Source: Euzebyella saccharophila (GTDB lineage Bacteria > Bacteroidota > Bacteroidia > Flavobacteriales > Flavobacteriaceae). Taken from it: 64,000 nt of DNA. The stretch spans positions 744,001 to 808,000 of the forward strand of contig NZ_JACYFJ010000002.1 in the NCBI RefSeq assembly GCF_014855495.1, written 5' to 3'. Under the pieces are notes generated by a model. The model saw only the letters and a list, made by a program, of their open reading frames with translations, ran no database searches and had not been told where the DNA came from. Made by a program: the position numbers and the translations under genes. Of the stretch, positions 25,370 through 46,182 are shown piece by piece. How positions within the stretch are numbered: position 1 is the first letter of the stretch; every line of letters begins with the position of its first letter.

Positions 25370-28057
25370 CTATTTTTGTTTTTCTAGAAATGATATTAAA
25401 GAAGCCAATTCTTCATAACTTAAGGCATTGGCGAGTCCGGTGGGCATCATGGAATTTTCCAATTCCTTTCGACTTGTAATCTCCGTCTTTTTTAACTGGG
25501 TGGCAATACCCGCTATATTGGTCAAGGTAAGGTCATCAGCGGATTCTCGGGTTACAAAACCTATGTACATTTTTCCTTCTTTGGTCTTTACCTGCACGGT
25601 AGCAAAACCTTGGGAGATAGAAGCATTGGGCTTTAATATGGACTCCGTAATCTGTTCCCGGTTCATAATCGAACCTATTTGCCCCATAAACGGCCCCTTC
25701 ATTACCTCACTGGTTTTTAGGCTGTGACAAGTGTTGCACGCTTGTGAACGAAACAGTTCCGCCCCCTTTTCCGGGTCTCCGGGAATTTGCTTCATTGCGA
25801 TCATAACATCTTCAATGGAAGCTTCCCCCACTTGGCCCTTCTTATTTTTTATTTTTTCCAAATCGGCTACCGGTTGTGGCTCCTCCGCCTGTACGGAAGT
25901 ATCCACCACCCCAAAATCCTCTATATCCAAACGGTATTTTGTATTTAAAAGTGCGTAAAGCTCCTTATCGTCCGCTTGTGTCGCCATCCATTCTTCCATT
26001 AAAAAATCTTGGATTCTTTCGGTTTCTGCCCATGGTTGGGTTTTGTAGTACGGACCTCTGGTATCCGGTCTGGTACCCCACCACCAAGAAGTATCATAGG
26101 GGGCCTCCTTATAGTAAATCCTGGCCAAGGAATGCAACAATTTTTCCTTCTTACCAGCATCGGAACTACGTTTATAAGCCTCCATCAGGGCCGTAACCAC
26201 CTTGGGCTGGTGCATATACCTCATGGCCCATAAGGCTAGTTCTTCATTAGGACTGCCAAGAGCTTTGATACATTCATCCACCGCTTTCAACTGCACCAAG
26301 GCCTTTACCGCCAAATGTGGTAGAATCATTTCTAAATTTGGAGTAGCATGTGGCCCCTCCGTACCAAATTTGGGCGCTTTAAAGGAATTGGGTACATTAA
26401 CGGCCAGCAAGTGCTCCGCTACTTCCTTTTTCCCCAATCTACCCAAACCTATTACGGCGGCCGCTTTTACACGATCGCTTCCGTCTTTTAAACCTTTTAC
26501 AAAGGGCGCTACCGAAACTTGCTCCGTATAGGGCTTTCTATCGGCCAAGGCGCGTAGGGCAAACTCCTGAACGGATGCATCATTGGTAAGTTTCTCCAAT
26601 GCCGGGATTGCTTCGCCCCCCTTCAACTGGGCATATGTGAAAATGGCTGCCACCCTTGTTTCCAAACTCTGGCCTTGATCCTTGGCCATATCCAACAAAT
26701 CGCTAGCTCCATCACCTCTTTTAAGGAGTTCCAACTGTGCACTTTGACGAACTTTGGCGCTTCCGGACTCTAAAAGATCCACTACACTGCCGGTCCAATA
26801 ATACTTACTGATATCCGGAAAGGGTTCCGATTTTAACCCTTCGGGCACCAAGCGAACAATAAAACCTTTATCCGGACTTCCGGAATAACCTGCCCCGTCC
26901 CAAGCGGAGAGGTACATTTTCCCCGAAGCATCGATATCCACATCCGTAATTTGGGGCAGCTTTAAAAACTTTTCTTCCTGCTGCGTAAAACTGGCCCCGT
27001 CTTCCGTTACCCTATGTACAAAAAGATAGTTTCTACCCCAGTCACCCATTAAAGGAATCTTGTTAAAATCGGTAGGCCACCGATTATCATCCAAATAAAG
27101 AGCGCCAACGCCAGACCCTCCACCAACATCCACAAGGGCCGGTAATATTTCTTCGGTAAAATTTTTAAAGAGAACGGGATAGCCATATTCACCACTTTGT
27201 ATCTGATGGATAAACCTTATGTTCCACCCACCACCATCATTAGTATTCCCCCGGGTATAGATATTCATAAAAGGATCGATGGCCACATCGTAAATGTTAC
27301 GAAGACCATGGGTGTACATTTCCATTTCCGTGCCATCTGGGCGTACTCTTAGCACGCCGCCACCCAAGCAGGTAAGCTGTCTGCCATCCGTTCCCGTAGC
27401 GTTGTTAAAACCAAAATCGCCAACAGCTATATAGATCCAACCATCAATACCCATTTGAATGCCATTGGTTGCGTGGTCCGTACCTCTTTCTCTTAAATAT
27501 TTTGGATTACTAAGATTCTTGATTAGCACTTTGGCAGGCCCATCAGCAATACCATCATTATCCGTATCATTAAGTACGATCAGATCCATATTCTCGGCCT
27601 TACCGGTGGTTTCCGAAAAACGGGTATGGAGCACAAAAACCTGTTCGCCTACGGGCAAGACACCCCTAGGGTTATCTACCTGGGCAAATTCCGTAACAGC
27701 ATCCATGATGCCATCATTATTGCAGTCTACCAGCCTTTTAATATAACCCTTGCCCATTTCCTTTCCCAAAGAGCCCATCATATCCACTCCAACAAAGACC
27801 TCTCCAACAGCCGATACGGCCATACATGCCGGGCTTGGGGTAATATCCGGACCTGCAAAGGCCCTTATCTCCAACCCTTCCGGAACTTTCAGGGAAGTTA
27901 ACAAAGAGTCGGTTGGATAACTGGGAACCTTGGTACTGACAGTACAATCTACCTTTTGGTCTTGACATCCAGCGATAGCTAAAGATGCCATTAAAATTGC
28001 ATATCTATTTCGATTTTGAAAATATGTTTTGGCAACAAATTGTAGTTTCTTGAGCAT
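25370..28057 (-). CDS. PQQ/NHL-propeller dehydrogenase with HEAT repeats and C-terminal cytochrome c
   Basis: A periplasmic or surface lipoprotein (lipobox ASLAIAGC) of about 895 residues from ATG 28057; the longer frame opens with TTG. Residues about 55-430 form a six-bladed propeller like soluble sugar dehydrogenases (NGIQMGIDGWIYIAVGDFG, MYTHGLRNIYDVAIDP). HEAT-type helical repeats (about 440-690) follow. The end is a cytochrome c domain with haem motif CNTCH and a late Met ligand region (ENSMMPTGLANAL). This is the architecture called membrane-bound dehydrogenase plus haem-binding domain in Planctomycetes and Bacteroidota. It probably oxidises a sugar-like substrate and passes electrons to a partner. 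It is the last gene of the locus B run. Confidence 0.85.
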   Translation of the reverse strand: MLKKLQFVAKTYFQNRNRYAILMASLAIAGCQDQKVDCTVSTKVPSYPTDSLLTSLKVPEGLEIRAFAGPDITPSPACMAVSAVGEVFVGVDMMGSLGKEMGKGYIKRLVDCNNDGIMDAVTEFAQVDNPRGVLPVGEQVFVLHTRFSETTGKAENMDLIVLNDTDNDGIADGPAKVLIKNLSNPKYLRERGTDHATNGIQMGIDGWIYIAVGDFGFNNATGTDGRQLTCLGGGVLRVRPDGTEMEMYTHGLRNIYDVAIDPFMNIYTRGNTNDGGGWNIRFIHQIQSGEYGYPVLFKNFTEEILPALVDVGGGSGVGALYLDDNRWPTDFNKIPLMGDWGRNYLFVHRVTEDGASFTQQEEKFLKLPQITDVDIDASGKMYLSAWDGAGYSGSPDKGFIVRLVPEGLKSEPFPDISKYYWTGSVVDLLESGSAKVRQSAQLELLKRGDGASDLLDMAKDQGQSLETRVAAIFTYAQLKGGEAIPALEKLTNDASVQEFALRALADRKPYTEQVSVAPFVKGLKDGSDRVKAAAVIGLGRLGKKEVAEHLLAVNVPNSFKAPKFGTEGPHATPNLEMILPHLAVKALVQLKAVDECIKALGSPNEELALWAMRYMHQPKVVTALMEAYKRSSDAGKKEKLLHSLARIYYKEAPYDTSWWWGTRPDTRGPYYKTQPWAETERIQDFLMEEWMATQADDKELYALLNTKYRLDIEDFGVVDTSVQAEEPQPVADLEKIKNKKGQVGEASIEDVMIAMKQIPGDPEKGAELFRSQACNTCHSLKTSEVMKGPFMGQIGSIMNREQITESILKPNASISQGFATVQVKTKEGKMYIGFVTRESADDLTLTNIAGIATQLKKTEITSRKELENSMMPTGLANALSYEELASLISFLEKQK

Positions 28058-28395
28058 TAAGATTGGTTGTTTTGGTAATGGAATATATTGGATTCGATAT
28101 CTTTTTAATAATCGTTCCAATGAAAATATTCCTAGCTGGCGTTAAAAAAATAATTTCGTGAAGGTATCAAAAATACTATTTTACGCGGAAGTATTTAATA
28201 TTTCGCCATTTAACATATACCCATATCTGAAAACCAAAGCAATAAAGAGTCTATACTATCTTATTTTCATCACCTATTAATCCATTATGAGGAACAAACC
28301 AACCATAAAATTATCCTTATCGAGAAGGATTAAAGAATCAAGCTTGTTCACCTCCCTCATAAAACTATTGCTTAAAAAGGTTAAAAGATTTAATC

Positions 28396-29151
28396 TTATT
28401 TAACCCAATCAAGGCTATTCCTTAATAAAGTTTGATACGCCTGTAAATCGTGAGCCCTTTCATCATGCCCCAACGTATTGCCTACAATTTTTGCCTTTGG
28501 ATGTTTCACTACCCAAACTACAGGAAATTCTTCACCTGACTCTAAACCTTTACCAATGGCCAAGACCTCGACATCTGTTCCGGCAGGGTCTTTTTCCCAA
28601 CGATAAAGTTCATCTACAATTCTAAAAGTTGCTGGAACGTCTTTCATAATAGGATGTTCCGGTTTGGTAACGATCACCTCAAACTCTTGCAGTTCTTCAT
28701 GTGAGCGTGATCCACCACCAACCAACTCTTTATTGTATTTGGGCCAATCTTCCCAATTGTACCATGTGCTCGGGTGGTAAATAAGCATATCAAGCTTACC
28801 ACTTTCTACATTGGAAAAAATGGATTCCTTAACCTCGACACTCAAGGGTTTGTTGTTGGTCAACATAAGCACATCAACAACTGGAACCAAAGAAGCTATT
28901 TCTGCCATATCTTCGGAATAGACCACCGTATTGCTACCGTTGTCACTCAAGATTTTTCCATCAGCTTTTCCGAAGAACTTTAAAAAATCATGTGATCCGC
29001 CACCTCCGGTAATAGCAATTTTACTGGCCTTCTTATTATTGGCTATGTAATGACCCTTTGCAGCATCAGTAGCATATTCTTTTGGCAGTTCTTGCGTCTT
29101 ACAACCGACGGCCATCGTCAATGTAGCAAGACCTAATAGTATGTTTCTCAT
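28396..29151 (-). CDS. ThuA-like domain lipoprotein
   Basis: A 251-residue lipoprotein (lipobox TMAVGC) with the class I amidotransferase-like ThuA fold: SKIAITGGGGSHDFLKFF near the N-terminus, DVLMLTNNKPLSVEV, LIYHPSTWYNW, and HPIMKDVPATFRIVDELYRW with the conserved H-P-I/D-E-L-Y pattern. The end is GNTLGHDERAHDLQAYQTLL. ThuA proteins act in the 3-keto-sugar route of disaccharide use in rhizobia, but the exact reaction of this secreted branch is unsettled. It lies between two propeller dehydrogenases on one strand, which supports a role in handling oxidised sugars. Confidence 0.85.
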   Translation of the reverse strand: MRNILLGLATLTMAVGCKTQELPKEYATDAAKGHYIANNKKASKIAITGGGGSHDFLKFFGKADGKILSDNGSNTVVYSEDMAEIASLVPVVDVLMLTNNKPLSVEVKESIFSNVESGKLDMLIYHPSTWYNWEDWPKYNKELVGGGSRSHEELQEFEVIVTKPEHPIMKDVPATFRIVDELYRWEKDPAGTDVEVLAIGKGLESGEEFPVVWVVKHPKAKIVGNTLGHDERAHDLQAYQTLLRNSLDWVK

Positions 29152-29190
29152 TTTCTGTTTTATTTCTGTTTATATACCTTTCTCACATAA

Positions 29191-31902
29191 TTATGCCCCT
29201 GTGACCTGAACCTCTTTTTCGCCATTGGGCGTTACAATAATGACCCCTTGCATAAACCTCCAGTGTCCAGGAAATGTACAAACAAAAGGATATCGGCCTG
29301 GCTTGTTCGGTAAGTTGATGATAATGGAATCACTTTCATTCGGGGCAAGCATAGTGGTCGCACCCAAGACATAACGTGAATTAGGAACGTAACCCATTTT
29401 TTCCGCTTCCGGCGTAGCCACAAACTCGTCTACTAGAGGTCCAAAAGCATCTAGGCTTTCAGGTCTTACAACCACCAAGTTATGCGGCATCTGATCCATA
29501 TTCTTCAATTTGATTTCTATGGTTTGACCGGCCTTGGCAAATAGTTCGGTTTGGTCAAAAGCCATCTCTTGAGGAACCGTTTTAAGATCAAAGACCACAT
29601 CGGCCTTGGTCTCACCTACTTTACCGATACCCATATCGATGTATTGATCCCCTCCGGTATTTATACAGTGTAATGCTATTACATTCTTACCTTTCTTGAA
29701 CAATTGACTTTTGGCCTCATCAAGTTTGATGAACTTATAGGCCTGACCGCTAGCGCCCGATTCAGCCATTAACTTCTCACCATTGATGAAAACTTCGTAG
29801 TCATCGTCATGGGCAATCTTCAAGACCGGCTCTTCAATTGCTTCATTCAATTGAAACTCTTTTCTTAACCAGATGTCATTTGAATCCCAAAGTGATTTAG
29901 CTTTTTCAATGGCCTTACCCCCAAAGAAGGCATCTCCCTTTTTCCAGCTAGAGGTATCGAACTGCTCCGATGCCCAATCACCTCCAGGATCTGAGGTGGT
30001 ATACAACCATTGCGAGGCACGGTCTTCTGCAGAAGGAACTATCATTTCTACCACGGCAGGGTCAACAGTTTCATAATTCAGTTCTCTAAAGTATACCTTG
30101 GTAGCTGCATTCAACCACTTATCAGAACTATTGGAAGCATCACCGGCCAACTTTTCCATGTCGGCATAAAGTCCTGATGATTCAGGAAGTTCAGATGCCC
30201 TAACTATCGCCGCCAACCTCACTTGGGCATTCGAATCGGTCAATAATTTGGACCCGGCAAGTAATTCACTACCTGCGGTATCGTTTGGCAACAAGGCCAT
30301 AGCTGCTCTTTTCACGGCAAAGCTTCCGTTTTCAAGTGCCTTTTTTAAAAGATCTTGCGTATTGGCATCTTCTCCATCAAAAGCTCCCAAACCATCCAAG
30401 GTCCACAAAGCATGCAGAACAGGAGCGTTGATTTCTTCATTCTGCCCTAAACCTTCTTCGGCCATTGTAATTAATTCACCTACGAGCTCTTTTTTACCTT
30501 CTTCAACAATCAAGCGTTGCGCCGTAATCCGCCAGAAAAGATTATCACTTTTTAAAGCGGCCAGAAGAGGTTCGTTATCACCTGCATCTAAAGATGTTAT
30601 GGAATCATCTATCTTATCATCGTATTTTACAATGTAGATACGACCATGACCATAGTCTCTTAATTTATTGATGTGAGCATTGCCCTCACCCTTGTCGGCA
30701 TTCCATATTTGATTGTCCATTCCCCTTTTATCGGGGTTATGCTGAATAACGGGGTTGTACCAATCTGCAACCCAAAGGTTACCATCGGGCCCGGTTTCAG
30801 CAAATACAGGGGCTGTCCATGCATCGGTACTGGCAAAGATATTTCCGCCATCGACCTCTTTATAACCCGCCCCATCCTTTACAATTTTGGCAATGTGAAC
30901 CAAATGTCCGGTAGGCTCTGCTACATACATTTGATTTCTATATTCTTTTGGATAGTTGCCTGCCGTATAAAAGTTAGCCCCGGAAGCCGCGGTAAAACCT
31001 CCACGAACATCGACCTGTTGCAGGGGGATGTCGGTAACGGGAGAAATTTCGTAGTGGCCTTGAATAAAATCGGCATTTAAAGCCCAAGAAGGAAGTTTCT
31101 CCAAATATTCGTAGTGCCTTAAAGGAATACCTACATAGCAAGCATGGTTATTATTGGCGGTAGAACCGAAAATTTCGAAATTCTCGTTATAGCCCATTCC
31201 CCAAGTATTATTATCAAACTGACCCACCGGTTCTAAAAAAGAGCCATCTTGACCAAAGCGATAAACACCTCTTTCAAACTTGACATTCTTATCACCGAAG
31301 GTATTTTCAAATCCGGAATATCCAACAGCACCCCATAAGTTATTATCAAGACCATATCTTAAACTTGACGGGCCTGCATGCGTATCAAATGTACCGAAAC
31401 CACCAAAAAGCACGGTGCGCTTGTCCATTTTATCATCCCCATCGGTATCTTCTAAAAAGACCATTTCAGGAGCTTGGGAAACAATAGCTCCCCCCTTGAC
31501 CAAAACAATTCCGGTGGTCAAACTTTGTTCGGTAGCAAAGTCGGTAAACTTATCCGCCTTGCCGTCACCATCGGTGTCCTCACATATGGTTATGCGGTCA
31601 CCGCCCACATCATTCGCCAAGTCGTGGGGATAATCTTTTGACTGCACTACCCATAGCCTTCCTTTCTCATCCCAAGTAAAGGCTATCGGGTTGATAATAT
31701 TCGGTTCGGCCGCAAAAAGATGTGCGCTAAAGCCTTCCGGTAACTGAATGTGCTTTTGTGAATCTTCAGGACTCAGTGGATCTTGTACCTTAGGGTTTTC
31801 CCCCGTGTAGGTAAGAGGCGGTGGCGGTTCTTTCGTTTCGGTACAGGAATAGAGCCCCATACCCAAAATGGCCAAAAAAAGGCCAGATCTAAATTTTATC
31901 AT
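29191..31902 (-). CDS. propeller dehydrogenase with HEAT repeats and C-terminal azurin-like copper domain
   Basis: A 903-residue lipoprotein (lipobox GMGLYSC). Order: propeller (about 45-400, with GFSAHLFAAEPNIINPIAFT and PDGNLWVADWYNPVIQHNP), HEAT repeats (about 430-600), a beta-sandwich (about 620-770, SQWLYTTSDPGGDW to HCINTGGDQYIDMGIG), and an azurin/plastocyanin domain (about 785-895). The blue-copper ligands are visible: His in QMPHNLVVV, then Cys, His and Met in CTFPGHWRFMQG. The copper domain could receive electrons from, or give them to, the cytochrome c of its paralogue at 25370. The substrate is unknown. It is separated from the ThuA-like gene by 39 bp. Confidence 0.88.
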   Translation of the reverse strand: MIKFRSGLFLAILGMGLYSCTETKEPPPPLTYTGENPKVQDPLSPEDSQKHIQLPEGFSAHLFAAEPNIINPIAFTWDEKGRLWVVQSKDYPHDLANDVGGDRITICEDTDGDGKADKFTDFATEQSLTTGIVLVKGGAIVSQAPEMVFLEDTDGDDKMDKRTVLFGGFGTFDTHAGPSSLRYGLDNNLWGAVGYSGFENTFGDKNVKFERGVYRFGQDGSFLEPVGQFDNNTWGMGYNENFEIFGSTANNNHACYVGIPLRHYEYLEKLPSWALNADFIQGHYEISPVTDIPLQQVDVRGGFTAASGANFYTAGNYPKEYRNQMYVAEPTGHLVHIAKIVKDGAGYKEVDGGNIFASTDAWTAPVFAETGPDGNLWVADWYNPVIQHNPDKRGMDNQIWNADKGEGNAHINKLRDYGHGRIYIVKYDDKIDDSITSLDAGDNEPLLAALKSDNLFWRITAQRLIVEEGKKELVGELITMAEEGLGQNEEINAPVLHALWTLDGLGAFDGEDANTQDLLKKALENGSFAVKRAAMALLPNDTAGSELLAGSKLLTDSNAQVRLAAIVRASELPESSGLYADMEKLAGDASNSSDKWLNAATKVYFRELNYETVDPAVVEMIVPSAEDRASQWLYTTSDPGGDWASEQFDTSSWKKGDAFFGGKAIEKAKSLWDSNDIWLRKEFQLNEAIEEPVLKIAHDDDYEVFINGEKLMAESGASGQAYKFIKLDEAKSQLFKKGKNVIALHCINTGGDQYIDMGIGKVGETKADVVFDLKTVPQEMAFDQTELFAKAGQTIEIKLKNMDQMPHNLVVVRPESLDAFGPLVDEFVATPEAEKMGYVPNSRYVLGATTMLAPNESDSIIINLPNKPGRYPFVCTFPGHWRFMQGVIIVTPNGEKEVQVTGA

Positions 31903-31951: not shown

Positions 31952-32359
31952 CTATTTTTTTCGGTAACTAGCGTAGGGTTCTTGTTGGCTCACATCAAGT
32001 GTACCAGCTTCCCAGCCCTCTGGTGGCGACAATACAGCCAAAAACTCAAGATCACCCTTACCTGCATTAAAAGTGCCATGCACCACATCTTTATCTATAT
32101 AGATAGAATCACCCACCTCTAGATATTGCATTTCATCTTCGATCCATTGTTCGGCCCTTCCTTTAAGTATGTACAGTATTTCGTGCATATTCGGATGCCG
32201 GTGAAAATCGTGGCCCATGCCCTCGGGCACTACCACCTTGACCATATAAGACTGTGCGCCTGCCATGGTTTCGGGGTGGTAATGCCAATAATGGAGCCTG
32301 CCAACGGTTTCCTCGAACATTAAATCCTCTTCCTTAACAAATTTCCATTGATCGGACAT
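31952..32359 (-). CDS. single-domain cupin protein
   Basis: A 135-residue cytoplasmic cupin. Motif 1 is GHDFHRHPNMHEILYILKG, with the metal-ligand histidines and Glu. Motif 2 includes GDSIYIDKDVVHGTFN, with the last histidine. There is no signal peptide. Small cupins of this type act as sugar isomerases, oxalate or keto-acid enzymes, or ligand-binding proteins; which applies is not clear. It lies 11 bp after the PEP-hydrolase-like gene, so the two are almost certainly cotranslated, and both probably act on the same metabolite. Confidence 0.8.
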   Translation of the reverse strand: MSDQWKFVKEEDLMFEETVGRLHYWHYHPETMAGAQSYMVKVVVPEGMGHDFHRHPNMHEILYILKGRAEQWIEDEMQYLEVGDSIYIDKDVVHGTFNAGKGDLEFLAVLSPPEGWEAGTLDVSQQEPYASYRKK

Positions 32360-32369: not shown

Positions 32370-33230
32370 CTAAAGGGTTAACGATTTGAACTCTTTGGTC
32401 AAATTGGTCAATGAAGCTTCAACCCCCATTCTTTCTAAAGAGGAAGCCCCTACAAAACCGTGTAAACCGTCAACGTGATCTAAGGCATATCTAACATCAG
32501 AAGGAGTGTTAATTGGGCCGCCGTGCGCTAAAAAGAAGGTATCGTGATTAGCTTTTTTAACAGCATCTACTATTTCTTGGGTACGTTCAAGAGCAGCATC
32601 CATAGAAACGGTTGCATCGGTTACACCAATCGAACCACCGACAGTAGTACCTACGTGGGCAATAATGGCATCTGCACCTGCGTCGGCCATTTGAACCGCT
32701 TCTTCGGGTTTGGCCACATAGACCACAGAGAACATATCCATTCTAGTAGCCAAGTCGACCATAGCCACCTCCTTTTTAAAACTCATTCCTGTTTCTTCCA
32801 GAACGTTTCTAAAATGGCCATCGATAATGGAGTGGGTAGGAAAGTTGTTAACTCCGGAAAAGCCCATGTCTTTCACTTGACCTAGAAAATGCCACATTCT
32901 TCTTCTTGGATCACTACCGTGAACCCCACAGATAACAGGTACTTCCTCTACTACCGGCAAGACTTCAAACTCGCCGATTTCCATAGCGACCGCATTGGCG
33001 TCACCATAGGCCATCATACCTGCGGTAGAACCATGACCGCTCATTCTAAATCGACCAGAATTGTAAATAATGATAAGGTCGGCGCCACCTTTTTCAATGA
33101 ATTTAGCACTGATACCAGTTCCCGCTCCTGCACCGATAATAGCTTTGTTTTGATCTAAAACCTTTTTTAAACGGTCTCTTACTTCTTGTTTGGTATAAGG
33201 GTTACCTATTCCCGTCCATTTGTTAGGCAT
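32370..33230 (-). CDS. PEP-hydrolase family TIM-barrel protein
   Basis: A 286-residue cytoplasmic TIM barrel of the phosphoenolpyruvate hydrolase-like family. Typical pieces are AIIGAGAGTGISAKFIEKGG, ADLIIIYNSGRFRM, PVICGVHGSDPRRRMWHFL, GVNNFPTHSIIDGHFRN and FFLAHGGPINTPSDV. The family resembles isocitrate-lyase/PEP-mutase-type barrels; its physiological reaction is not established. It follows the Tm-1-like gene by 54 bp. In plants the same two domains form one protein (tomato Tm-1), so the neighbouring genes probably encode subunits of one complex. Confidence 0.88.
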   Translation of the reverse strand: MPNKWTGIGNPYTKQEVRDRLKKVLDQNKAIIGAGAGTGISAKFIEKGGADLIIIYNSGRFRMSGHGSTAGMMAYGDANAVAMEIGEFEVLPVVEEVPVICGVHGSDPRRRMWHFLGQVKDMGFSGVNNFPTHSIIDGHFRNVLEETGMSFKKEVAMVDLATRMDMFSVVYVAKPEEAVQMADAGADAIIAHVGTTVGGSIGVTDATVSMDAALERTQEIVDAVKKANHDTFFLAHGGPINTPSDVRYALDHVDGLHGFVGASSLERMGVEASLTNLTKEFKSLTL

Positions 33231-33284: not shown

Positions 33285-34520
33285 TTATTTATCCATTAAT
33301 AGCAACAACTCTTCGGTTATTACTTCGGCAAATTCCGAAGTGTTTACGTTTACATCTACCTCAACTACTTTTATCTTCGAGTCTAGATGCTCACATATAG
33401 ACTTAAAAAGTTGCTTATCGGCCTCTGCGTCATAAAACACCTCGCCCTTAGCGCCTATTTTAGATAATCCGTTCAAGGGAAGAACAACGGTAACCGCATT
33501 CTTTGAGCTGTTCAACCTTTCAGCAATTTGCCTACCCAGTATATCGTTCTCGTCTTTATTCGTTCTCATAAGGGTTACGTCGGGTGCCCATGAGAACAAA
33601 TGCCTGTCTTGGTATTTTTCAGGAACCGTACTTTTCGCGGCAAAATTCACCATATCAATACACCCGGGAACCACCACTTGTGGAAGGCCCATTTTTGAGG
33701 CAGATTTTAATCTATGGGGACCAGCGCTACAGATTCCCCCGCACAGCTCATCAGCCAATTCAGTGGTCGTAAGGTCAAGTACGGCGTCAAAAACACCTTC
33801 TTCCATTAAAGACTCCATCGTTTTACCTCCGGTACCTACGGCATGAAAAGCCAGAACATCGTATCCTTTCGATTTTAAGATTTCAGAAGCCCTATTCGCA
33901 CATACCGTGGTGTTACCAAATACACTGAGGGCTATACTACCTTTGGTATCGCTATCTTTTAAAGGCACGATATTGGCCATTCCTAAAACGGCACCTGCGG
34001 CTTGATTGATCAACACCCTACTTATGCGATTAAGACCCGCTACATCAACAATTGAAGGCATCAGCACAATATCTTTATCCTCAATCTTTTCTGATAAATC
34101 TTTAGTGGCCAAGGTACTCAAACACAGTTTTGGTACACCGAATGGTAGGGTTTTCATAGCTTCTATAGCCACAAAGGTACCACCGCCACCGCCCATTCCG
34201 ATTACTGCATTAATCTCATTCTTTTGGAAAAGATCCGCCAGAATTTGTCCTGCACCTTTACCCATGACAATAAGAGCCTCTCCTCTGTCATTCGCCTTCC
34301 TCAATGCCGTGATGTATTGTTCTGCAGCCTCAGCAACCTTATCAGCCTCAAAATTTACAGGAAACTGGTCGGTACTACCTAAAACACCCGTATTAATGGA
34401 AACTACCTCAGCACCTCCTTTTGTCAAACAACTATGTAGGTAGGCGAAATCTTCTGCTTTGGTATCAAAACAGCCCACCATCGCCACCTTAGTTTTTTCA
34501 CTCATATTCTTATTAATCAT
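33285..34520 (-). CDS. Tm-1-like ATP-binding protein (UPF0261)
   Basis: A 411-residue cytoplasmic protein of the UPF0261/Tm-1 N-terminal family. Markers are VAMVGCFDTKAEDFAYLH at the start, AVIGMGGGGGTFVAIEAMKT (glycine-rich nucleotide-binding loop), VDVAGLNRISRVLINQAAGA and VFGNTTVCANRASEIL. The start ATG at 34520 overlaps the TGA of the upstream GH43 gene by four bases, suggesting translational coupling; a second ATG lies five codons later. ATP binding is known for the plant protein, which blocks tomato mosaic virus replication. The bacterial role is unknown. It is followed by the TIM-barrel partner. Confidence 0.88.
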   Translation of the reverse strand: MINKNMSEKTKVAMVGCFDTKAEDFAYLHSCLTKGGAEVVSINTGVLGSTDQFPVNFEADKVAEAAEQYITALRKANDRGEALIVMGKGAGQILADLFQKNEINAVIGMGGGGGTFVAIEAMKTLPFGVPKLCLSTLATKDLSEKIEDKDIVLMPSIVDVAGLNRISRVLINQAAGAVLGMANIVPLKDSDTKGSIALSVFGNTTVCANRASEILKSKGYDVLAFHAVGTGGKTMESLMEEGVFDAVLDLTTTELADELCGGICSAGPHRLKSASKMGLPQVVVPGCIDMVNFAAKSTVPEKYQDRHLFSWAPDVTLMRTNKDENDILGRQIAERLNSSKNAVTVVLPLNGLSKIGAKGEVFYDAEADKQLFKSICEHLDSKIKVVEVDVNVNTSEFAEVITEELLLLMDK

Positions 34521-35512
34521 TTTTTGCCCTCAAGTTGCAAAAACCTAAATGTATTTTTATCAATGCTTATTTCTTCTTGTCCTTCGTCACCGTCGCTAAA
34601 TACTAATTTGACAATTGCAGTGCGTCTCGGCTGTACCTTTGAATCATCAAAATGGGTATGAAGGACATAATACAAAGAACCGTCTTCATGCTCTAGAACA
34701 TCGCCGTGGCCCGTTCCGTTGATTCCTAAAATTTCTTTGGTAATGAAAGGTCCGTTTTTAGATTTGGTCCAAGGGCCTAAAGGATGATTGCTAGTGGCAT
34801 AGCCAACGGCATAATCAGGATTACGAAAATCATTCGCCGAATAAATCATGTAATAAATTCCTTTTCTCCTCAAAATAGTGGGCCCTTCGGTTACGGGCCA
34901 TTCGCTATCCCACGTATTTTCCCAAGGCAATTCGCCAGATATACATTCTTTTAACGTCTCAGGTTTTATGGCCTCTAACGAGTCTTCAAGTTCAGCTACA
35001 AAAATTCGGTTACCCTCTGTCAACCTTACATGGTAAAGGTATTTTTTACCGTCATCATCAAAATAAATAAAGGGATCGATTTGCCTTACGGGAGCCTGCA
35101 AGTCTTTCTTTTCTTTATTCTTAAAAGGACCGGAAGGATGGCTCGACGTAGCCAATGCGATGTGCTCATCGGCAGTATAGGCCATATAATATTTAGAGTC
35201 GTACTTAAATATTTGTGGAGCCCAAAAGCCCTTTGTACCAAATGCATCTCCCTGTCTCATGGCCAACCTTTTTGACGGGCCGGAGGGACCTTGCCAGTCA
35301 ACTAAATCTTTGGAAGTGTAGACCAAGAAACCTTTATCCTTTCCCATTTTTGGATCTCCGGTGGTTCCATATAAATAATATGTACCATTTTCCTGAAAAA
35401 TAGTCGGATCGGCCAACAAAGGATTTACCGAGGAATCTTGACCATAACCGCTAAAAAGAATGCCGATAAAAATGGATAGAAAAGAAATGCTATATCTCAT
35501 TGGTAGGTACAT
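34517..35512 (-). CDS. glycoside hydrolase family 43 enzyme
   Basis: A secreted 331-residue five-bladed propeller glycosidase with a signal peptide (about 5-25). The GH43 catalytic triad is visible: Asp35 in LLADPTIF (general base), Asp146 in RQIDPFIYF (pKa modulator) and Glu209 in PVTEGPTIL (general acid). GTGHGDVLEHEDGSLYYVLH also fits. The family covers arabinofuranosidases, xylosidases and galactosidases; subfamily cannot be fixed by eye. Its start codon shares one base with the stop of the mutarotase gene, and its stop overlaps the next start, so it is tightly coupled in the operon. Confidence 0.9.
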   Translation of the reverse strand: MYLPMRYSISFLSIFIGILFSGYGQDSSVNPLLADPTIFQENGTYYLYGTTGDPKMGKDKGFLVYTSKDLVDWQGPSGPSKRLAMRQGDAFGTKGFWAPQIFKYDSKYYMAYTADEHIALATSSHPSGPFKNKEKKDLQAPVRQIDPFIYFDDDGKKYLYHVRLTEGNRIFVAELEDSLEAIKPETLKECISGELPWENTWDSEWPVTEGPTILRRKGIYYMIYSANDFRNPDYAVGYATSNHPLGPWTKSKNGPFITKEILGINGTGHGDVLEHEDGSLYYVLHTHFDDSKVQPRRTAIVKLVFSDGDEGQEEISIDKNTFRFLQLEGKK

Positions 35513-36690
35513 TATTTTGTGGAAAAACGGTATTCAGTCATCGTATGATACTCTTCTCCCGGGTTTAATCTAATGGTCGGAAAATTCTTTTGGTTGGGCG
35601 AATCTGGGTAATGCTGGGTTTCAAGACAGAAAGCGGATCGATGCTCATCGCGTGCGCCCGACTTCAACTTATTCTCTGCATTCATGAAATTACCACTATA
35701 GAATTGCACGCCGGGTTCGGTCGTGAAGACTTCCATAACCACACCTGATTTGTCGCCTACTACCGTAGCGGCCTGCTTTAAAGAATTGTTCGTTTCATCG
35801 CTAAGAACGAAATTATGATCGTAGCCACCTCCATATTTAATCTGAGTATCCTCCGCCTCAATTCGCTCCCCTATTCTATGAGGTTCTGTAAAATCAAAAG
35901 GAGTATACTTTACCGCTTTTAACTCTCCCGTAGGAATCAAGGTTTGATCGACCGGGGTAAACTTATCGGCATACAATATCATTTCATGGTCTAAAATGTT
36001 ACCACTGCCCTCTCCATTCAAATTGAAATAAGCGTGATTGGTAAGGTTAACAATGGTCGGCTTGTCGGTTACCGCATCGTATTCAATTCTTAGGGTGTTA
36101 GGCTTTATCAAATGGTAAGTTACCTTCGCATCTAGAGCCCCAGGAAAACCTTCTTCCATATCTTCTGACAAATAATTCAATACCAACGTAGTATCATTAC
36201 TAGACTGTACTTTCCAAACTTTATCTTGAAAACCGTTCGGACCCCCATGCAAGGCATTTTCACCATTATTGGTCTCTACCGAATAGTTCTTGCCATCTAT
36301 GCTGAATTTACCTCCTGCGATTCGATTGCCCACTCTTCCTATCAAAGCTCCGAAATAAGATTCCGGACCATCGATATATTCTTTGACACTGCCACGCCCA
36401 ATGACCACATCTACCCTATCGCCTTTGGTATCCGGCGTAAATAGGCCCACTATTCTTCCACCATAATTGGTGATGGCCACTTCAATATCATCATTTTTAA
36501 GCCAATAGAGTTTTACTTGATTACCATCGACAATCGTGTCAAAAGCCCCGGCATTAAGATTTCCGGCTCTGGCCTCCATCACCTCAGTGGCCTCTTCTTG
36601 TTCCGGTTGATCCTGCTTCTTTTCTTGTTTGCATGAAAAAACTACCGTTAGCAAAGTGCTTAAAGCAAATAATTTCAGTTTCATATTCAT
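35512..36690 (-). CDS. galM: aldose 1-epimerase (mutarotase), lipoprotein
   Basis: Interconverts alpha and beta anomers of free aldoses such as galactose. The 392-residue protein has a lipobox (LTVVFSC), placing it in the periplasm or on the surface rather than the cytoplasm. Family motifs: NYGGRIVGLFTPD, GRVGNRIAGGKF, ENALHGGPNGFQDKVW (with the catalytic-region His), VNLTNHAYFNLNGEG (with the catalytic His), GGYDHNFVL, and TTEPGVQFYSGNF with the catalytic Glu/Gln region. It lies between the sulfatase and GH43 genes with gaps of only a few bases or none. Its presence suggests that monosaccharides are released outside the inner membrane. Confidence 0.93.
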   Translation of the reverse strand: MNMKLKLFALSTLLTVVFSCKQEKKQDQPEQEEATEVMEARAGNLNAGAFDTIVDGNQVKLYWLKNDDIEVAITNYGGRIVGLFTPDTKGDRVDVVIGRGSVKEYIDGPESYFGALIGRVGNRIAGGKFSIDGKNYSVETNNGENALHGGPNGFQDKVWKVQSSNDTTLVLNYLSEDMEEGFPGALDAKVTYHLIKPNTLRIEYDAVTDKPTIVNLTNHAYFNLNGEGSGNILDHEMILYADKFTPVDQTLIPTGELKAVKYTPFDFTEPHRIGERIEAEDTQIKYGGGYDHNFVLSDETNNSLKQAATVVGDKSGVVMEVFTTEPGVQFYSGNFMNAENKLKSGARDEHRSAFCLETQHYPDSPNQKNFPTIRLNPGEEYHTMTEYRFSTK

Positions 36691-36695
36691 CCTTT

Positions 36696-38402
36696 TTAAT
36701 TTGGAGCAGGGTAAACCTTATATTTGTTAGCCAGTTCTTCCCATTCTTTCGCTAATTCTTTTACTTCTTTATGATGGGTAGCGGCCAAATTGACCTGTTC
36801 CGTTTTATCGTTCGATAGGTTATAGAGTTCCCAAGGTTGTCCAGCATCTAACCTTACCAATTTTAAATCTCCTTTACGTAGTGCTTGAGAACCGAAATGT
36901 TCCCAAAAAAAAGTTTCTTGTGTGGGACGGTCGGCCTTGCCTTTCAATAAAGGAATGATACTGCTGCCAGGAGTAGGGGTTATTAACCTTCCATCAAATT
37001 CTGTTGGATAAGTACCGCCAGAGACATCTACACAGGTTGCCATAATATCACTCACATGGGCCGGCACTGTTCTAACCTCCCCATTATTCTTTAATTCTTT
37101 GGGCCACGAAGCTATAAACGGAGTATTGATACCACCTTCGAAAACTTTGGCCTTCCAAAACCTAAAGGGGGTATTTACGGTATGGGCCCACTGCGGACCG
37201 ATACCTGAAAGAACCGTTTGGGGCCCGGGAAGTACTTCTTTATTAACAGGAAATTGAACCTGTTCGCCATTTCGTGTACTTCCTGCCCTGTCGAAACCAG
37301 GCCCATATTTAGAGGGTCTTTCTGAACTCGCTCCGTTATCGGAGAGAAAGAGTACCAACGTATTTTCTAGTTTGCCGGTTTCTTCGAGTTTGTTCATCAA
37401 TTCGCCAATTGTTCTATCCATAACATCGACCATAGCAGCGTGTACGGCCATAGCGCGTACATCCCATTCTTTATCGGAATTGTTTTCCCAATTTAATTCG
37501 GGAAACATAAATTCTGGCAATTGGGTATCTTCAGATATCAATCCCTTTGCTACCAAATTCTTATAACGCTCTTCCCTAATGGCTTGCCAGCCCTTCTCGT
37601 ATTTATCAACATACTTTTGAATTATACTATCAGGGGCTTGAAGGGGCCAATGGGGGGCACAATGGGCCACGTACAAGAAAAATGGATTTTCTTTTTTAGA
37701 AAACTCGCTTACATAGGCAACAGCCGAATCTCCTATAGCTTGCGTATGATAATAATCTTCGGGCACTTTTTCTACTTGCTGGTTGCCATTGACCAAACTA
37801 AATGGATCAAAATAATCGACCACACCCCAGATATTGCCATAGAATTTATCGAATCCTCTTGCGGTCGGGTATGATTTTAAATCGGAAAATGGGCCGTAAT
37901 TTTCTTGATGAGCCAACCATTTGAGTTGTTTGTCACCCCGTAGATCATTCGTTTCAGAAACATGCCATTTACCTACCATACCCGTTTGATACCCTTCTTT
38001 TTTGAGTACCTCGGCAATGGTAACGGTATTTTCGTTCAATGTACCTTGATAACCCGGCAGACCTGCATCCATTGTCATTCTACCCAGACCCGCTTGGTGT
38101 GGATATAACCCAGTGAGCAAAGAAGCCCTTGTGGGGCAACAGCGGGAAGTATTATAAAATGAAGTAGACCTTATACCTGTCGCAGCCAGACGGTCTAGGT
38201 TCGGTGTATTTATTTCGCCCCCGTAACAACCTAAATCTGAAAAACCGAGATCATCGGCCATTATGATTACAATATTTGGTCTATTGCCTTTCTTAGGATG
38301 AACTTTATATGTTTGCGACTTAGCATCACTACCCATCGAGAAAAAGGTAATGACCAAAAGGCTTGATAAAACTATCGATATGTAGGTTGCAATTTTTAAC
38401 AC
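36696..38402 (-). CDS. sulfatase (family S1, formylglycine type)
   Basis: Removes sulfate esters from carbohydrate; about 568 residues and secreted. The core is NIVIIMADDLGFSDLGCYGG (metal-binding DD), followed by the active-site motif SRCCPTRASLLTG, where the first Cys becomes formylglycine. GMVGKWHVS, APHWPLQAP and FLSDNGASSERPS supply the other metal and substrate ligands. I chose GTG 38402, 28 bp after the upstream GH43 stop, because it starts a proper signal peptide (MLKIATYISIVLSSLLVI). The longest frame would begin at 38501 inside that gene. The sulfatase shows that the polymer used by locus B carries sulfate. Confidence 0.88.
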   Translation of the reverse strand: MLKIATYISIVLSSLLVITFFSMGSDAKSQTYKVHPKKGNRPNIVIIMADDLGFSDLGCYGGEINTPNLDRLAATGIRSTSFYNTSRCCPTRASLLTGLYPHQAGLGRMTMDAGLPGYQGTLNENTVTIAEVLKKEGYQTGMVGKWHVSETNDLRGDKQLKWLAHQENYGPFSDLKSYPTARGFDKFYGNIWGVVDYFDPFSLVNGNQQVEKVPEDYYHTQAIGDSAVAYVSEFSKKENPFFLYVAHCAPHWPLQAPDSIIQKYVDKYEKGWQAIREERYKNLVAKGLISEDTQLPEFMFPELNWENNSDKEWDVRAMAVHAAMVDVMDRTIGELMNKLEETGKLENTLVLFLSDNGASSERPSKYGPGFDRAGSTRNGEQVQFPVNKEVLPGPQTVLSGIGPQWAHTVNTPFRFWKAKVFEGGINTPFIASWPKELKNNGEVRTVPAHVSDIMATCVDVSGGTYPTEFDGRLITPTPGSSIIPLLKGKADRPTQETFFWEHFGSQALRKGDLKLVRLDAGQPWELYNLSNDKTEQVNLAATHHKEVKELAKEWEELANKYKVYPAPN

Positions 38403-38430
38403 TAGTTTTTTGCCTTTCGGATTGTATTTT

Positions 38431-39675
38431 TTAATTCTGCAATGGTTTTGGAATCGGTTCAGTGGTTGGGCCATCGACCACCAAAGTTCCGTCTTCTTCA
38501 ATATTCATCTGGTCAATAAAAACAACTCTATTTTCTCCTGTTGCCTGTGTGCGACCATGATAAACGGTGTACATTTTTTTTCCACCAACTAGAGATAAGA
38601 CCATATTATGACCGGTTCCGGTGACATCGCCGCCCTTATCTATATTCTTCTGTAAAACAGGGTTGTTATCTGCCTTTTGATAAGGACCTAATGGCGAATT
38701 AGATGTGGCATAACCCACAGAATAATTTGGGCCTGCGTAGTGGTTTGCCGAATACATCATGTAATAAGTGCCGTTATTTTTAAAGGTAAAAGAACCTTCT
38801 GTCCATCTTCTATTTACTTCTTTTGAAATAACCGAACGACTTTCCCATTCGGCATTACGGTCGTTCATTTCAAGCGGTGGCCTAAGTAGTAATTGGGGTT
38901 TGCCGATAACACTTTTAAAATCAGCTGCCAATTCTACCCCATAGACCCAACTTTCTTCAATTTCGTCATACAGACCTTCTTTTTTGGCCCATTCAGAAAT
39001 CTCACTCTCTACAGGATGTTTGTAGCAAACCCTCGAATAATAAAGGTAAAATTTACCATCGTCATCTTTAAAGACATTCGCGTCTATAATAGGATACCCG
39101 GGATCAAATAAAGGTTGGTCGGTCAAATCTGTAAAAGGACCTTTAGGACTATCGGAAATAGCCACCCCAATCTTGAAATTTTCAAGTTCATTGTTGGGAT
39201 TATCCTTATCATCTGCACTGAAAAACAAGAAATACTGATTTTCAAATTTGTACACTTCGGGCGCCCAAAAGTTCTTTTGAGTCCAAGATGCTTCGGTATT
39301 TCCTTCATAAATACGGCCTTCGAACTTCCAGTTCACCAAATCATTTGATGAATAGGTAGCAAAGCCATTTTCAACTTGGCCTGTTCCATACATATAAAAA
39401 GTGCCATCGCCATTATCCAACACAAATGGATCCCCAAATTCAACATCTATCGGATTAGAAAACGTTTCGTCGGCTACTTCCTTAACTTGTTTCTTTTCAA
39501 CCTTCTCCTTACATCCTAATAAAGAACAAAAGATGAGGTTGACTAACAAAAAGCAATATTTGTGTTTTTTTATCAAATCAATAGTATTAAAGTGCCTATA
39601 AGTTATAAATAAAAAGCTTGTTCCTTGATTTCTTAAATACCGGGCCCCTATCACAAAGGCCCGGTAAAACCTCAA
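38431..39675 (-). CDS. glycoside hydrolase family 43 enzyme, lipoprotein
   Basis: A 414-residue frame from ATG 39675, but the first 33 residues are odd ahead of the signal peptide (CFLLVNLIFCSLLGC, lipobox Cys55). A TTG near 39576 may be the true start. Catalytic residues fit GH43: Asp82 in EFGDPFVL, Asp198 in PIIDANVF and Glu293 in RRWTEGSFTF. A long insert after the second Asp (about 215-285, KKEGLYDEIEESWVYGVELA) sets it apart from the GH43 at 34517. GTGHNMVLSLVGGKKMYTVYHG near the end also fits. It is the first enzyme gene after the susCD-DUF3823 block. Confidence 0.88.
   Translation of the reverse strand: MRFYRAFVIGARYLRNQGTSFLFITYRHFNTIDLIKKHKYCFLLVNLIFCSLLGCKEKVEKKQVKEVADETFSNPIDVEFGDPFVLDNGDGTFYMYGTGQVENGFATYSSNDLVNWKFEGRIYEGNTEASWTQKNFWAPEVYKFENQYFLFFSADDKDNPNNELENFKIGVAISDSPKGPFTDLTDQPLFDPGYPIIDANVFKDDDGKFYLYYSRVCYKHPVESEISEWAKKEGLYDEIEESWVYGVELAADFKSVIGKPQLLLRPPLEMNDRNAEWESRSVISKEVNRRWTEGSFTFKNNGTYYMMYSANHYAGPNYSVGYATSNSPLGPYQKADNNPVLQKNIDKGGDVTGTGHNMVLSLVGGKKMYTVYHGRTQATGENRVVFIDQMNIEEDGTLVVDGPTTEPIPKPLQN
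39638..39666. promoter_or_regulatory. stem-loop between DUF3823 gene and downstream enzyme genes
   Basis: A 9-bp GC-rich perfect stem (TACCGGGCC and its complement) with an 11-nt loop in the 102-bp gap. The run after it on the minus strand (TTTAAG) is too short for a firm terminator. It may be a leaky terminator or an mRNA-end stabiliser that lowers expression of the distal genes relative to susCD. Confidence 0.5.
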
Positions 39676-39777
39676 TTTAAGTGACTACTAACAACTCAAC
39701 ATTAGCCAATCATTAAGATACTCTTCCCTTTATTCATTTGCACCATCTCTCGCTTCATTACAGGGAAAAGCAATGTA

Positions 39778-40467
39778 TTACAAGTTTAACTTTTCAACAG
39801 GTGTATAAATCATATCTTCAATACCCTCTACCTTTACCCCTATACGGGCAAAGATGTAGTCTTGATCCGGTTTTTTGGCATCCTCGGGTATATCTACCGA
39901 CATGGAGAGGTTGCTCAAATCACTTAAATCGGCATCGACCTGGGCAATGCTTCCTTCACCCCCACTGTTGGTATCGACAAACTGGGTTCTGTTGATTACC
40001 AAGGTAACACGTTCAACGGCCCTGCCATTTGCTCCAGTGATTATTTGATCAACACCACAAGTACCGCTTACCGTTCCGGAAGATTGCGAAAACTGAGCTC
40101 CACGGATCATGTAATAAGGAGTAACATTGAGGTCCATAGTTTTGTTTCCGCTTAGATTAAAATACAGAGTATCGGAGGAAGCCCTGAATGGACCTTCACC
40201 CGGTAGAAAAATCAATTTATAGTCTCCGGAAAAAAGTCTGCTGCTAAAGCTTCCGTCTTGAGCTATAGCCACGTCAATAGGCGCAGGGCTGCCATAGCCC
40301 GATTGCCATAATTCAAACCTTACCTGGTTTCTCGCAACTGGTATCGCTTGACCCTCATATACAATATTTCCGGTAAAGTCGGCATCAGGTTCATTGAAGT
40401 TATCCAATTCACATGAGGCAGAAACCGCTAGTACAAGTAAGGCCAGTATATAGAATTTTACTTTCAT
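39778..40467 (-). CDS. DUF3823 domain lipoprotein (SusE-position protein)
   Basis: A 229-residue lipoprotein (lipobox AVSASC) with an N-terminal carboxypeptidase-regulatory-like beta domain (about 30-115, FTGNIVYEGQAIPVARNQ) and a second beta domain, together the DUF3823 pattern. These lie directly after SusD genes and are thought to sit on the cell surface and bind glycan, in the manner of SusE/F. It follows SusD by 19 bp. No catalytic motif is seen. Confidence 0.85.
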   Translation of the reverse strand: MKVKFYILALLVLAVSASCELDNFNEPDADFTGNIVYEGQAIPVARNQVRFELWQSGYGSPAPIDVAIAQDGSFSSRLFSGDYKLIFLPGEGPFRASSDTLYFNLSGNKTMDLNVTPYYMIRGAQFSQSSGTVSGTCGVDQIITGANGRAVERVTLVINRTQFVDTNSGGEGSIAQVDADLSDLSNLSMSVDIPEDAKKPDQDYIFARIGVKVEGIEDMIYTPVEKLNL

Positions 40468-40486
40468 GTTCTTTAGTTTTCTAGTT

Positions 40487-42376: not shown

Positions 42377-42389
42377 TTTTCGATCAATT

Positions 42390-45536: not shown

Positions 45537-46102
45537 TGTTTCTCATTTTTGAATGATTGCTTAGAGATTAGTTCGCTAGTTGAGTAAATTGATAGAATCT
45601 TAAATTGAGAAAGGTGTTTGTGTTATAATTTCATTTTAAGTTGTTTTAGTTGAGTATTTATTTGAGATAGAGCTTTAAAATTGACAAATTGCCAATGATC
45701 AAATAAAATGAATTCAGAATCCTATTACCCTGTGGATTGTTTCATTCTATCATACAAATCGTTCAAATTTTAAGAGAAGGTTAAGAGAAGAGCCTTTATT
45801 GATACAAATTGTTGCGGTTTGAGACAGATTGTATACCAATCAATTAACAAAGGTTTAAATAATTGATTTTCAAATGGTTTGACAACCATATGAAACAAGT
45901 CAATTCATATCAATAAAAGTGAAATCAGTACAATTTGTGCTGAAGTTGTCATTTCAGGTTGGTTTAGAACATTTCGCGAGATGACTAGAGAAGATTCCTA
46001 TCCTGAAACGATAACAAGAATCAAATCCATCCAAGTATTATCTGACTTGAAGTATTGTTTAAATTGAGAAAATTCAAAGAAGGAGATGGTAGAACTGGTA
46101 CA
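45537..46102. promoter_or_regulatory. control region upstream of locus B susC
   Basis: This 566-bp AT-rich non-coding stretch must hold the promoter of the SusC run. It contains a 10-bp direct repeat (45770-45790) and two ATACAAAT boxes exactly 50 bp apart (45752 and 45802). The second box pairs loosely with ATTGTAT at 45828. No small gene was seen. Confidence 0.5.
45770..45790. repeat. direct repeat TTAAGAGAAG with 11-bp period, candidate operator
   Basis: Two identical 10-bp copies (45770-45779 and 45781-45790) are spaced one helical turn apart, about 235 bp upstream of the susC start. Tandem half-sites on one face of the helix suit the AraC-type DNA-binding domain of a hybrid two-component regulator, but binding is only inferred. 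Confidence 0.4.
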
Positions 46103-46134
46103 TAAAAAATGCCATCCCAATCCAAGGATGGCAT
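46103..46134 (-). terminator. terminator of the GH2-GH43 unit
   Basis: A 9-bp perfect stem (ATGCCATCC and its complement) followed by a T6 run on the minus strand, 49 bp past the GH43 stop. It separates this unit from the susC run downstream. Confidence 0.85.
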
Positions 46135-46182
46135 CGTGCTTAAATTCTAAACAATCCAAATTTGAATCTTACATTTTCTTAT

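Follow-up and report, generated by a model that had tools for sequence, protein, structure and literature searches.

A recurrent five-gene cassette of Bacteroidota with a copper-tailed propeller lipoprotein and ThuA: a candidate sugar-oxidation system

The stretch of DNA considered here (64,000 nucleotides of Euzebyella saccharophila, Flavobacteriaceae; assembly GCF_014855495.1, contig NZ_JACYFJ010000002.1, positions 744,001 to 808,000; below, the window) contains, next to a polysaccharide utilization operon, genes for a UPF0261 protein, a PF09370 protein, a cupin, a propeller protein with a copper-binding tail, and a ThuA protein. These five genes (28396-34520) are a recurrent unit found in several Bacteroidota families; on balance, the unit probably serves sugar oxidation, with a surface oxidoreductase that delivers electrons to type-1 copper, a ThuA protein that acts on the product, and a cytoplasmic conclusion of the pathway. 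A first-pass annotation of this DNA had singled out a different set, the copper-tailed gene, the ThuA gene, and a downstream gene for a cytochrome c-tailed propeller (below, the heme gene and heme protein), as a trio that ends the polysaccharide operon. All three open reading frames are present on the minus strand at the positions it gave (Table 1), and the operon does lie upstream on the same strand; the intervening cupin, PF09370, and UPF0261 genes had been missed. A cassette that recurs in several Bacteroidota families replaces the gene trio of a single lineage.

A pattern-limited scan of a species-genome collection with the copper protein yielded 56 loci, distributed over Flavobacteriaceae-type genera, Saprospiraceae, Chitinophagaceae, and Cyclobacteriaceae; because the genomes of any one sample are related to each other, the fractions given throughout are not independent events. 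The PF09370 gene stood beside the copper gene in all 51 loci with at least 1.5 kb of upstream sequence, the cupin gene in 45 of the 51 loci with at least 0.6 kb, and a UPF0261 gene was found nearby in 38 of the 49 loci with at least 3 kb; in the window it is adjacent to PF09370. Gaps between the five window genes measure 10-54 bases, and the UPF0261 gene shares 4 bases with the GH43 gene upstream of it. Of 51 loci in which the linkage to ThuA could be evaluated (contig ends prevent this in the other five of the 56), 50 have ThuA fused to the copper protein or next to it, the two forming one open reading frame in 37 (about 1,110 amino acids where complete) and neighboring genes in 13, of which one (L052) is a broken frame. 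The unfused arrangement includes the near relatives of the window. Further genes near the cassette encode a glycerate kinase (PF02595) in 18 loci (47 loci have at least 4.5 kb of upstream sequence) and a major facilitator superfamily transporter in nine.

The cassette was also recovered from its PF09370 side. With PF09370 as the query, 31 of 392 Bacteroidota genomes gave a match, 29 of them over the cut-off, and the 34 regions over the cut-off were fetched, the genome of the window being excluded; 25 of these regions belong to a close PF09370 subfamily, and a copper-clade propeller lies beside PF09370 in 21 of the 25. Copper-clade regions with intact ends carry a fused ThuA in 20 of 20 cases and a cupredoxin domain in 19 of these 20. 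Among the 21 regions, four resemble a fused form of the window cassette; nine (one cut by a contig end) combine cupredoxin with a C-terminal ThuA, without a jelly-roll domain and without UPF0261 in the region; and eight carry ThuA at the N-terminus, one of them (L105) with no visible cupredoxin. In the nine other regions (L125-L133), PF09370 is of a distant subfamily and no copper propeller is adjacent to it; the one in L130 lies about 6 kb away. On plasmids, 230 records matched PF09370, and UPF0261 plus PF09370 occurred with a cupin gene in four of the six regions opened; three of these four contain a Gfo/Idh/MocA gene, and three of the four a sugar ABC transporter. A search for UPF0261 DNA in E. 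coli led nowhere.

The middle gene of the former trio was correctly called ThuA-like; it matches PF06283 with 73.3 bits against a cut-off of 33.4. The ThuA tree contains two subfamilies: one comprises the window ThuA, the C-terminal fused domains, and three free ThuA genes, the other consists of N-terminal domains, so that two ThuA subfamilies have been fused, by lineage, to opposite ends of the copper propeller. Free ThuA genes are also kept in five of eight N-terminal-type operons; three of the five are in the tree, which places them in the window subfamily, and the other two were assigned to it by hidden Markov model. Fusion at both ends ties ThuA to one class of sugar-oxidoreductase-like proteins. 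In a sample of DUF7133 propellers, made up of long-frame matches only (19 regions) and three loci of the window genome with the window's own pair left out, ThuA was fused to five of five copper-type and none of 17 heme-type proteins (Fisher p 4e-5, a value that ignores relatedness). One of the five copper types (L138) has its cupredoxin in a separate adjacent gene, and for one of the 17 heme types (L136), a ThuA gene lies in the neighborhood. The sample leaves out frames of about 370-550 amino acids, weak long-frame matches (e.g., G037, G064, G080, G096), two weak frames in L145 and L147 (9-15 bits for the propeller), and a 649-amino-acid copper-tailed protein of the window genome (L136, 27.7 bits for DUF7133); counting the latter changes the copper-type result to five of six. 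The window genome encodes a second strong copper protein with an N-terminal ThuA, followed by AP_endonuc_2 and GFO_IDH_MocA genes, and two large proteins in which ThuA is fused to a PF07995 (GSDH-type) propeller (L160, C11:575656-576498; L161, C8:132053-132880); thus, the partners of ThuA in this genome include more than one propeller of the sugar-dehydrogenase type. In four Arenibacter loci (L014, L017, L025, L046), another ThuA gene or gene piece lies in tandem behind the fused one.

The copper protein, with 903 amino acids, is composed of a propeller (residues 44-428), a helical stretch (443-605), a jelly roll (approximately 626-768), and a cupredoxin domain (769-895). Its C-terminus, with the motif CTFPGHWRFM, matches Copper-bind (PF00127) with 37 bits against a cut-off of 21.2; all 33 aligned orthologs keep the copper ligands H807, C875, H880, and M884 without variation, and the ligand pattern recurs in all 22 proteins with both domains among the filtered open reading frames of the fetched regions. 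The domain aligns with auracyanin A (2aan; Z 19.1, root-mean-square deviation [rmsd] 1.6, 121 aligned residues); fold and the His, Cys, His, Met set make it a type-1 copper domain, in agreement with the azurin-like domain with C-x-F-P-G-H...M proposed in the first-pass annotation. The match to the azurin equivalog TIGR02695, at 29.7 bits, remains below the cut-off of 105.1, and the protein contains no CxxCH. Lipobox-like cysteines are found, at the level of a motif, near the N-termini of the copper protein, the heme protein, and also ThuA; the two large proteins had been recognized as lipoproteins before, ThuA had not. HEAT repeats had been attributed to both large proteins. Pfam finds HEAT_2 in the heme protein; in the copper protein it finds no HEAT match at E ≤ 1e-3, yet the AlphaFold model (33 sequences; mean predicted local distance difference test [pLDDT] 74.8) shows the helical stretch at 443-605, and a distant copper-type relative in L102 matches HEAT_2 with 35 bits, so that this segment is likely HEAT-like. 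The jelly roll, missed in the earlier note, is modeled with a pLDDT of 90.5; it matches N-terminal domains of GH2 enzymes, with 5uj6 as the best VIA match (Z 12.6, rmsd 3.3, 125 aligned residues).

The propeller itself belongs to the TIGR02604 family (229 bits, cut-off 122.2). Its model aligns best with AA12 enzymes (6h7t: Z 22.9, rmsd 4.1, 296 residues; 6jt5: Z 21.9), and the next matches include HHIP (Z 20.0), sGDH (Z 19.4), and Asd (Z 19.3); compared by profile with AA12-like proteins encoded in this genome, it gave an E value of 2.8e-10. A histidine in the position of a catalytic base (His175; His144 of sGDH, His363 of CcPDH) is kept in 28 of 28 copper-type rows of the alignment, and the polar motifs NNTWG, STAN, DWYN, and GR[IV][YW] are strongly conserved across copper-type lineages. 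Predicted fold and catalytic histidine together suggest that the propeller is an oxidoreductase.

From these observations, a scheme can be proposed for the oxidoreductase role, the substrate, the cofactor, the compartment, the ThuA reaction, and all cytoplasmic steps. A lipoprotein of the cell surface or the periplasm, with a propeller of the type found in dehydrogenases that depend on pyrroloquinoline quinone (PQQ), would oxidize a sugar or oligosaccharide, which the GH2-N-like jelly roll may hold; the type-1 copper in the cupredoxin tail of this protein would take up the electrons and hand them to another carrier. The oxidized sugar would be converted by ThuA, either as part of the chain or as a lipoprotein encoded next to it, and the product, once imported, would be handled by the cupin, PF09370, and UPF0261 proteins; the route may, in many relatives, end at the level of glycerate, with glycerate kinase. 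In a sugar pathway leading to a three-carbon acid, the copper propeller would then stand in for the NAD-linked oxidation. In its most specific form, with PQQ-free sugar oxidation by a surface lipoprotein chain with built-in copper and ThuA, and a split to glycerate by the UPF0261, PF09370, and cupin proteins, the scheme is offered tentatively; if true, it would be a catabolic pathway not found described in the literature searched, and it would provide a biochemical role for the protein family that gave rise to Tm-1, an antiviral protein of plants. The open-licence PubMed Central (PMC) literature (one library) yielded no paper on the cassette, nor any combining "PVC-type heme-binding" and "azurin"; for UPF0261 and PF09370, the extracts of the open-access literature contained no assigned reaction.

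Several observations weigh against the sugar-oxidation scheme. The core of the propeller is modeled with low confidence (pLDDT about 50 for residues 170-310), HHIP has the same fold and is not a dehydrogenase, and a profile search of solved structures with the propeller gave no match up to E 10. The AA12 ligands of PQQ, R273, R430, and H539 in CcPDH numbering, are without equivalent in 28 of 28 copper-type rows, which have Ile/Met for R273, Asn for R430, and Phe/Tyr for H539; heme-type rows retain the arginine equivalent to R430 in 15 of 20 cases. The roles of these ligands are those given for CcPDH and TrAA12, where R430 is the arginine of an Arg/Asx dyad, in the extracts of the two papers (PMC6881789, PMC6881810). 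Classical PQQ binding by the copper propeller is thus contradicted by its sequence; the propeller was rejected as a PQQ enzyme, and it was not assigned to AA12 or sGDH because the PQQ-binding residues are missing. Catalysis could accordingly be lost or different. PqqC was matched in none of 22 cassette genomes, in a search that had no responding positive control. As to cofactor ligands, whose absence the first-pass annotation had named as telling against its proposal, those for copper are present and those for PQQ are not. The linkage also has gaps: L018 has no ThuA nearby; a 997-amino-acid copper-tailed propeller (L130) and the 649-amino-acid copper-tailed family with weak DUF7133 matches have no fused ThuA; L105 has the fused ThuA and no detected cupredoxin. 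UPF0261 was not found in 11 of 49 loci, nor in nine fetched regions of lineage f38. Four of the 25 close PF09370 regions have no copper-clade propeller (L100, L101, and L110, where the contig ends, and L114, which has a heme-type propeller about 3 kb away), and two of the six plasmid contexts, on Gluconobacter and Streptomyces plasmids, are less telling. Finally, the glycosidases around the cassette differ between loci; arabinan is a possible substrate.

The heme gene appears to have arrived beside the cassette by chance. Its product does end in a cytochrome c, as the first-pass annotation had noted (CNTCH; TIGR02603 with 103 bits against a cut-off of 68), and it matches DUF7133 with 90 bits, more weakly than the copper protein does; for TIGR02604, its 72.8 bits fall below the cut-off of 122.2. 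The two propellers were formerly described as paralogous: they are homologous (hhalign E 9e-47 for a copper-type profile against a heme-type one in which the window protein is included), but they are very far apart in the propeller tree and differ in their active-site signatures. In this tree, the window heme protein falls among the heme types and well away from the copper clade, but its branch is very long, which makes its exact position uncertain. A Ketogulonicigenium vulgare plasmid (L093:3881-6193) encodes another DUF7133 protein (270 bits), whose gene is flanked by those for a small c-type cytochrome and a tripartite tricarboxylate transporter; this protein is possibly a simpler relative of the heme type.

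Gene distribution separates the heme gene from the cassette. Of 40 copper loci with at least 5 kb of downstream sequence, a single one (L007, with a copper protein 98% identical to that of the window) has a heme ortholog; L032 is omitted from this count, with too short a flank and a weak match (42 bits) that is another protein. Among 299 genomes of the family, with only the best few candidates per genome scored, heme orthologs occurred in 11, orthologs of the copper cassette (at least 66% identity) in ten, and both in six; of these six, only the window genome has the two genes adjacent, and the other five have them on different contigs. Conversely, heme orthologs stood alone, without any cassette gene, in ten of ten fetched neighborhoods, and no neighbor was common to more than three of these ten. 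In L008 and L009, with copper proteins 98% and 95% identical to that of the window, the slot after ThuA holds a different gene for 694-697 amino acids, and DNA similarity to the window ends at the ThuA stop codon. Membership of the heme gene in the cassette was rejected on account of this distribution and slot replacement. The slot protein of L009 (L009:13513-15606; 697 amino acids) has no Pfam match, and its relatives fill the post-ThuA slot in eight loci; a search for this gene (c13) in the window genome found none, without a positive control. As to a promoter for the heme gene, scans for sigma-70 sites and terminators remained at chance level; one -7-like site was seen, without a full Bacteroidetes-type -33/-7 pattern and without an unusual fold. 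A GC-rich palindrome at 25322-25343, just after the heme gene and seen as a self-inverted blastn match, is possibly a terminator.

The cytochrome-copper relay that the first-pass annotation had built from the heme-tailed and copper-tailed window proteins around ThuA is therefore largely refuted by distribution. The three genes are adjacent on one strand in the window and in L007; this near-identical locus is the only other one in which the heme gene was found beside its two supposed partners, so that the co-occurrence beyond this genome on which the proposal depended is essentially absent for the heme gene. With one of 40 loci, different contigs in five of six genomes, ten of ten heme neighborhoods lacking ThuA and copper genes, the replacement boundary at the ThuA stop codon, and a gap of 275 bases between ThuA and the heme gene (versus 10-54 inside the cassette), the relay is very improbable for the window proteins. 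Of the association between propellers and ThuA, what stands is the part that concerns the copper-tailed protein.

The general idea of a heme-copper-ThuA system may hold elsewhere in the same genome. Locus L136 (C14:1-14000, features 292-9081) unites copper-tailed and cytochrome-tailed propellers, a 3-keto-disaccharide hydrolase, and ThuA; on one strand and with small gaps follow the PF06439 hydrolase, the 649-amino-acid copper-tailed protein, a HlyIII-type gene, and a 753-amino-acid cytochrome-tailed DUF7133 protein; the opposite strand encodes ThuA and a LacI regulator. In the 299 family genomes, relatives of the 649-amino-acid protein were found in 29, relatives of the 753-amino-acid protein in 48, and both in 24; they are adjacent in five of the 24, with ThuA in four of these five. 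Ten regions were fetched, with the four other adjacent cases deliberately among them; nine (L188-L196, not L187) have a hydrolase relative by the 649-amino-acid gene, and three, all adjacent cases, have relatives of ThuA and LacI. L136 shows that heme-tailed and copper-tailed proteins can share a locus with ThuA, which is the one general point in favor of a relay, but these are other family members than those of the window; partly conserved in relatives, L136 is a better candidate for such a system than the window trio.

Three further readings of the cassette have to be compared with the sugar-oxidation scheme. The first is a special case of it, with overlapping probability: the propeller might oxidize a glycoside at a ring carbon (e.g., C3), after which the bond might be split by ThuA, by a 3-keto hydrolase, or through elimination, amounting to glycosidase action without a classical glycosidase domain. 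Both AP_endonuc_2 and GFO_IDH_MocA proteins occur in 3-keto-sugar pathways, and genes for both follow the second strong copper protein of this genome. The position of the L136 copper gene behind a PF06439 hydrolase and the GH2-N-like domain of the window copper protein fit the same idea, as does Lac161_ORF7, a purified TIGR02604-HEAT-cytochrome relative that released glucose from lactose, according to the extract of its description (PMC5342196). However, Lac161_ORF7 is of the heme type, the extract describes no ThuA in it, and the paper terms it a beta-galactosidase; none of the scanned window genes matches PF06439. Oxidation-assisted cleavage is possible, well short of probable.

An ordinary PQQ-dependent aldose dehydrogenase of the AA12/sGDH type, with a copper tail, would yield lactones, and ThuA would handle the lactone or aldonate. 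The fold ranking, with AA12 at the top and sGDH and Asd close behind, the conserved His175, and a mandelate-racemase/enolase-superfamily gene in the L105 neighborhood point in this direction, but the missing equivalents of R273, R430, and H539 argue the other way; the lack of PqqC matches, in a search without a control, does so too, although PQQ could be scavenged. This reading is unlikely. Less likely still is a propeller that, like HHIP, serves as a non-enzymatic binding module in a lipoprotein for copper or glycan binding or for sensing. The HHIP match, the lost PQQ ligands, and a jelly roll of a sugar-binding fold would suit such a module, but the conserved polar motifs and the linkage to catabolic genes favor an enzyme.

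Table 1. Cassette, domains of the copper protein, and adjoining genes, in positions of the 64,000-nucleotide window.
Feature	Position	Strand	Remarks
Cytochrome c-tailed propeller protein	25370..28120	-	Outside the recurrent cassette; sits in the slot of another gene
ThuA protein with its own lipobox-like signal	28396..29151	-	PF06283; groups with the C-terminal ThuA domain of fused relatives (tree)
Copper-tailed propeller lipoprotein, 903 amino acids	29191..31902	-	Propeller, HEAT-like stretch, jelly roll, cupredoxin
Cupredoxin (auracyanin-like) electron-transfer domain	29218..29598	-	PF00127; 2aan fold match; ligands kept
Jelly-roll domain, like the N-terminal sugar-binding domain of GH2 enzymes	29599..30027	-	Fold only
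Propeller domain DUF7133 (PF23500), PQQ-dehydrogenase-type fold	30619..31773	-	356 bits; AA12 fold match
Cupin (Cupin_2) without signal-like N-terminus; cassette gene	31952..32359	-	Pfam match
PF09370 "phosphoenolpyruvate hydrolase-like" TIM-barrel protein; cassette gene	32370..33230	-	359 bits; solved relative 2p10
UPF0261 (Tm-1-like) protein; cassette gene	33285..34520	-	Relatives 3wry (Tm-1 protein) and 9mpy
Polysaccharide utilization operon	34517..49222	-	GH43, GalM, sulfatase, GH43, DUF3823, SusD, SusC-like TonB receptor, GH43, GH2

In the operon, the SusC-like receptor matched the Plug and CarboxypepD_reg domains. Downstream of the cassette, the opposite strand (20217-25152) encodes an FG-GAP/UnbV_ASPIC protein and a PAP2-like protein, relatives of which are found near the cassette in six and eight of the 56 loci, respectively. 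A protein with a peptide-N-glycosidase F C-terminal domain is encoded at 17610-19574. Elsewhere in the window, a phage-type integrase and two sulfatase genes close to it (55004-56224 and 58552-62000) may mark an acquired segment.

The cassette has counterparts, each of them partial, among known systems. The copper protein shares the propeller family of the PVC-type heme-binding CxxCH proteins (TIGR02604/TIGR02603); in contrast to these, it has a cupredoxin tail, no CxxCH, and Asn where most heme-type rows keep Arg, a copper domain as the electron exit where heme is usual in the propeller family, and an altered cofactor pocket. ThuA/ThuB-type catabolism of 3-keto-disaccharides is found in rhizobia; here too a ThuA family member is located beside a presumed sugar oxidoreductase, but this is a propeller-copper lipoprotein and not a Gfo/Idh/MocA enzyme, and the ThuA protein is lipobox-bearing or fused. 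Auracyanins and azurins share the fold and the ligand set of the copper tail, which differs in being one domain of a chain of 900-1100 amino acids and in scoring below the azurin equivalog cut-off; a published azurin survey excluded matches longer than 200 amino acids, as stated in the extract of that paper (PMC8779525). In the plant protein Tm-1, an inhibitor of viral RNA replication, UPF0261 and TIM-barrel domains form one fused protein, according to the extract (PMC5028733); the cassette has the corresponding UPF0261 and PF09370 proteins (solved relatives: Tm-1, 3wry, and the PF09370-type 2p10) as products of separate, adjacent bacterial genes, and thus places the two families of this virus-resistance protein in a sugar context. 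The AA12 PQQ-dependent pyranose dehydrogenases CcPDH and TrAA12 share the propeller fold (Z 21.9-22.9) and the position of the catalytic-base histidine; in CcPDH, the sugar-oxidizing propeller is joined to an electron-transfer domain, in this case with heme b, in the extracts of its descriptions (PMC6881789, PMC4332668), just as the copper protein joins its propeller to a cupredoxin. The differences are the missing PQQ ligands, copper instead of heme, the ThuA partner, and a lipobox-bearing, bacterial protein. The cassette is best classed as a variant of the systems that combine a sugar-oxidizing propeller with an electron carrier, and its central protein neither as a PQQ enzyme nor as an azurin.

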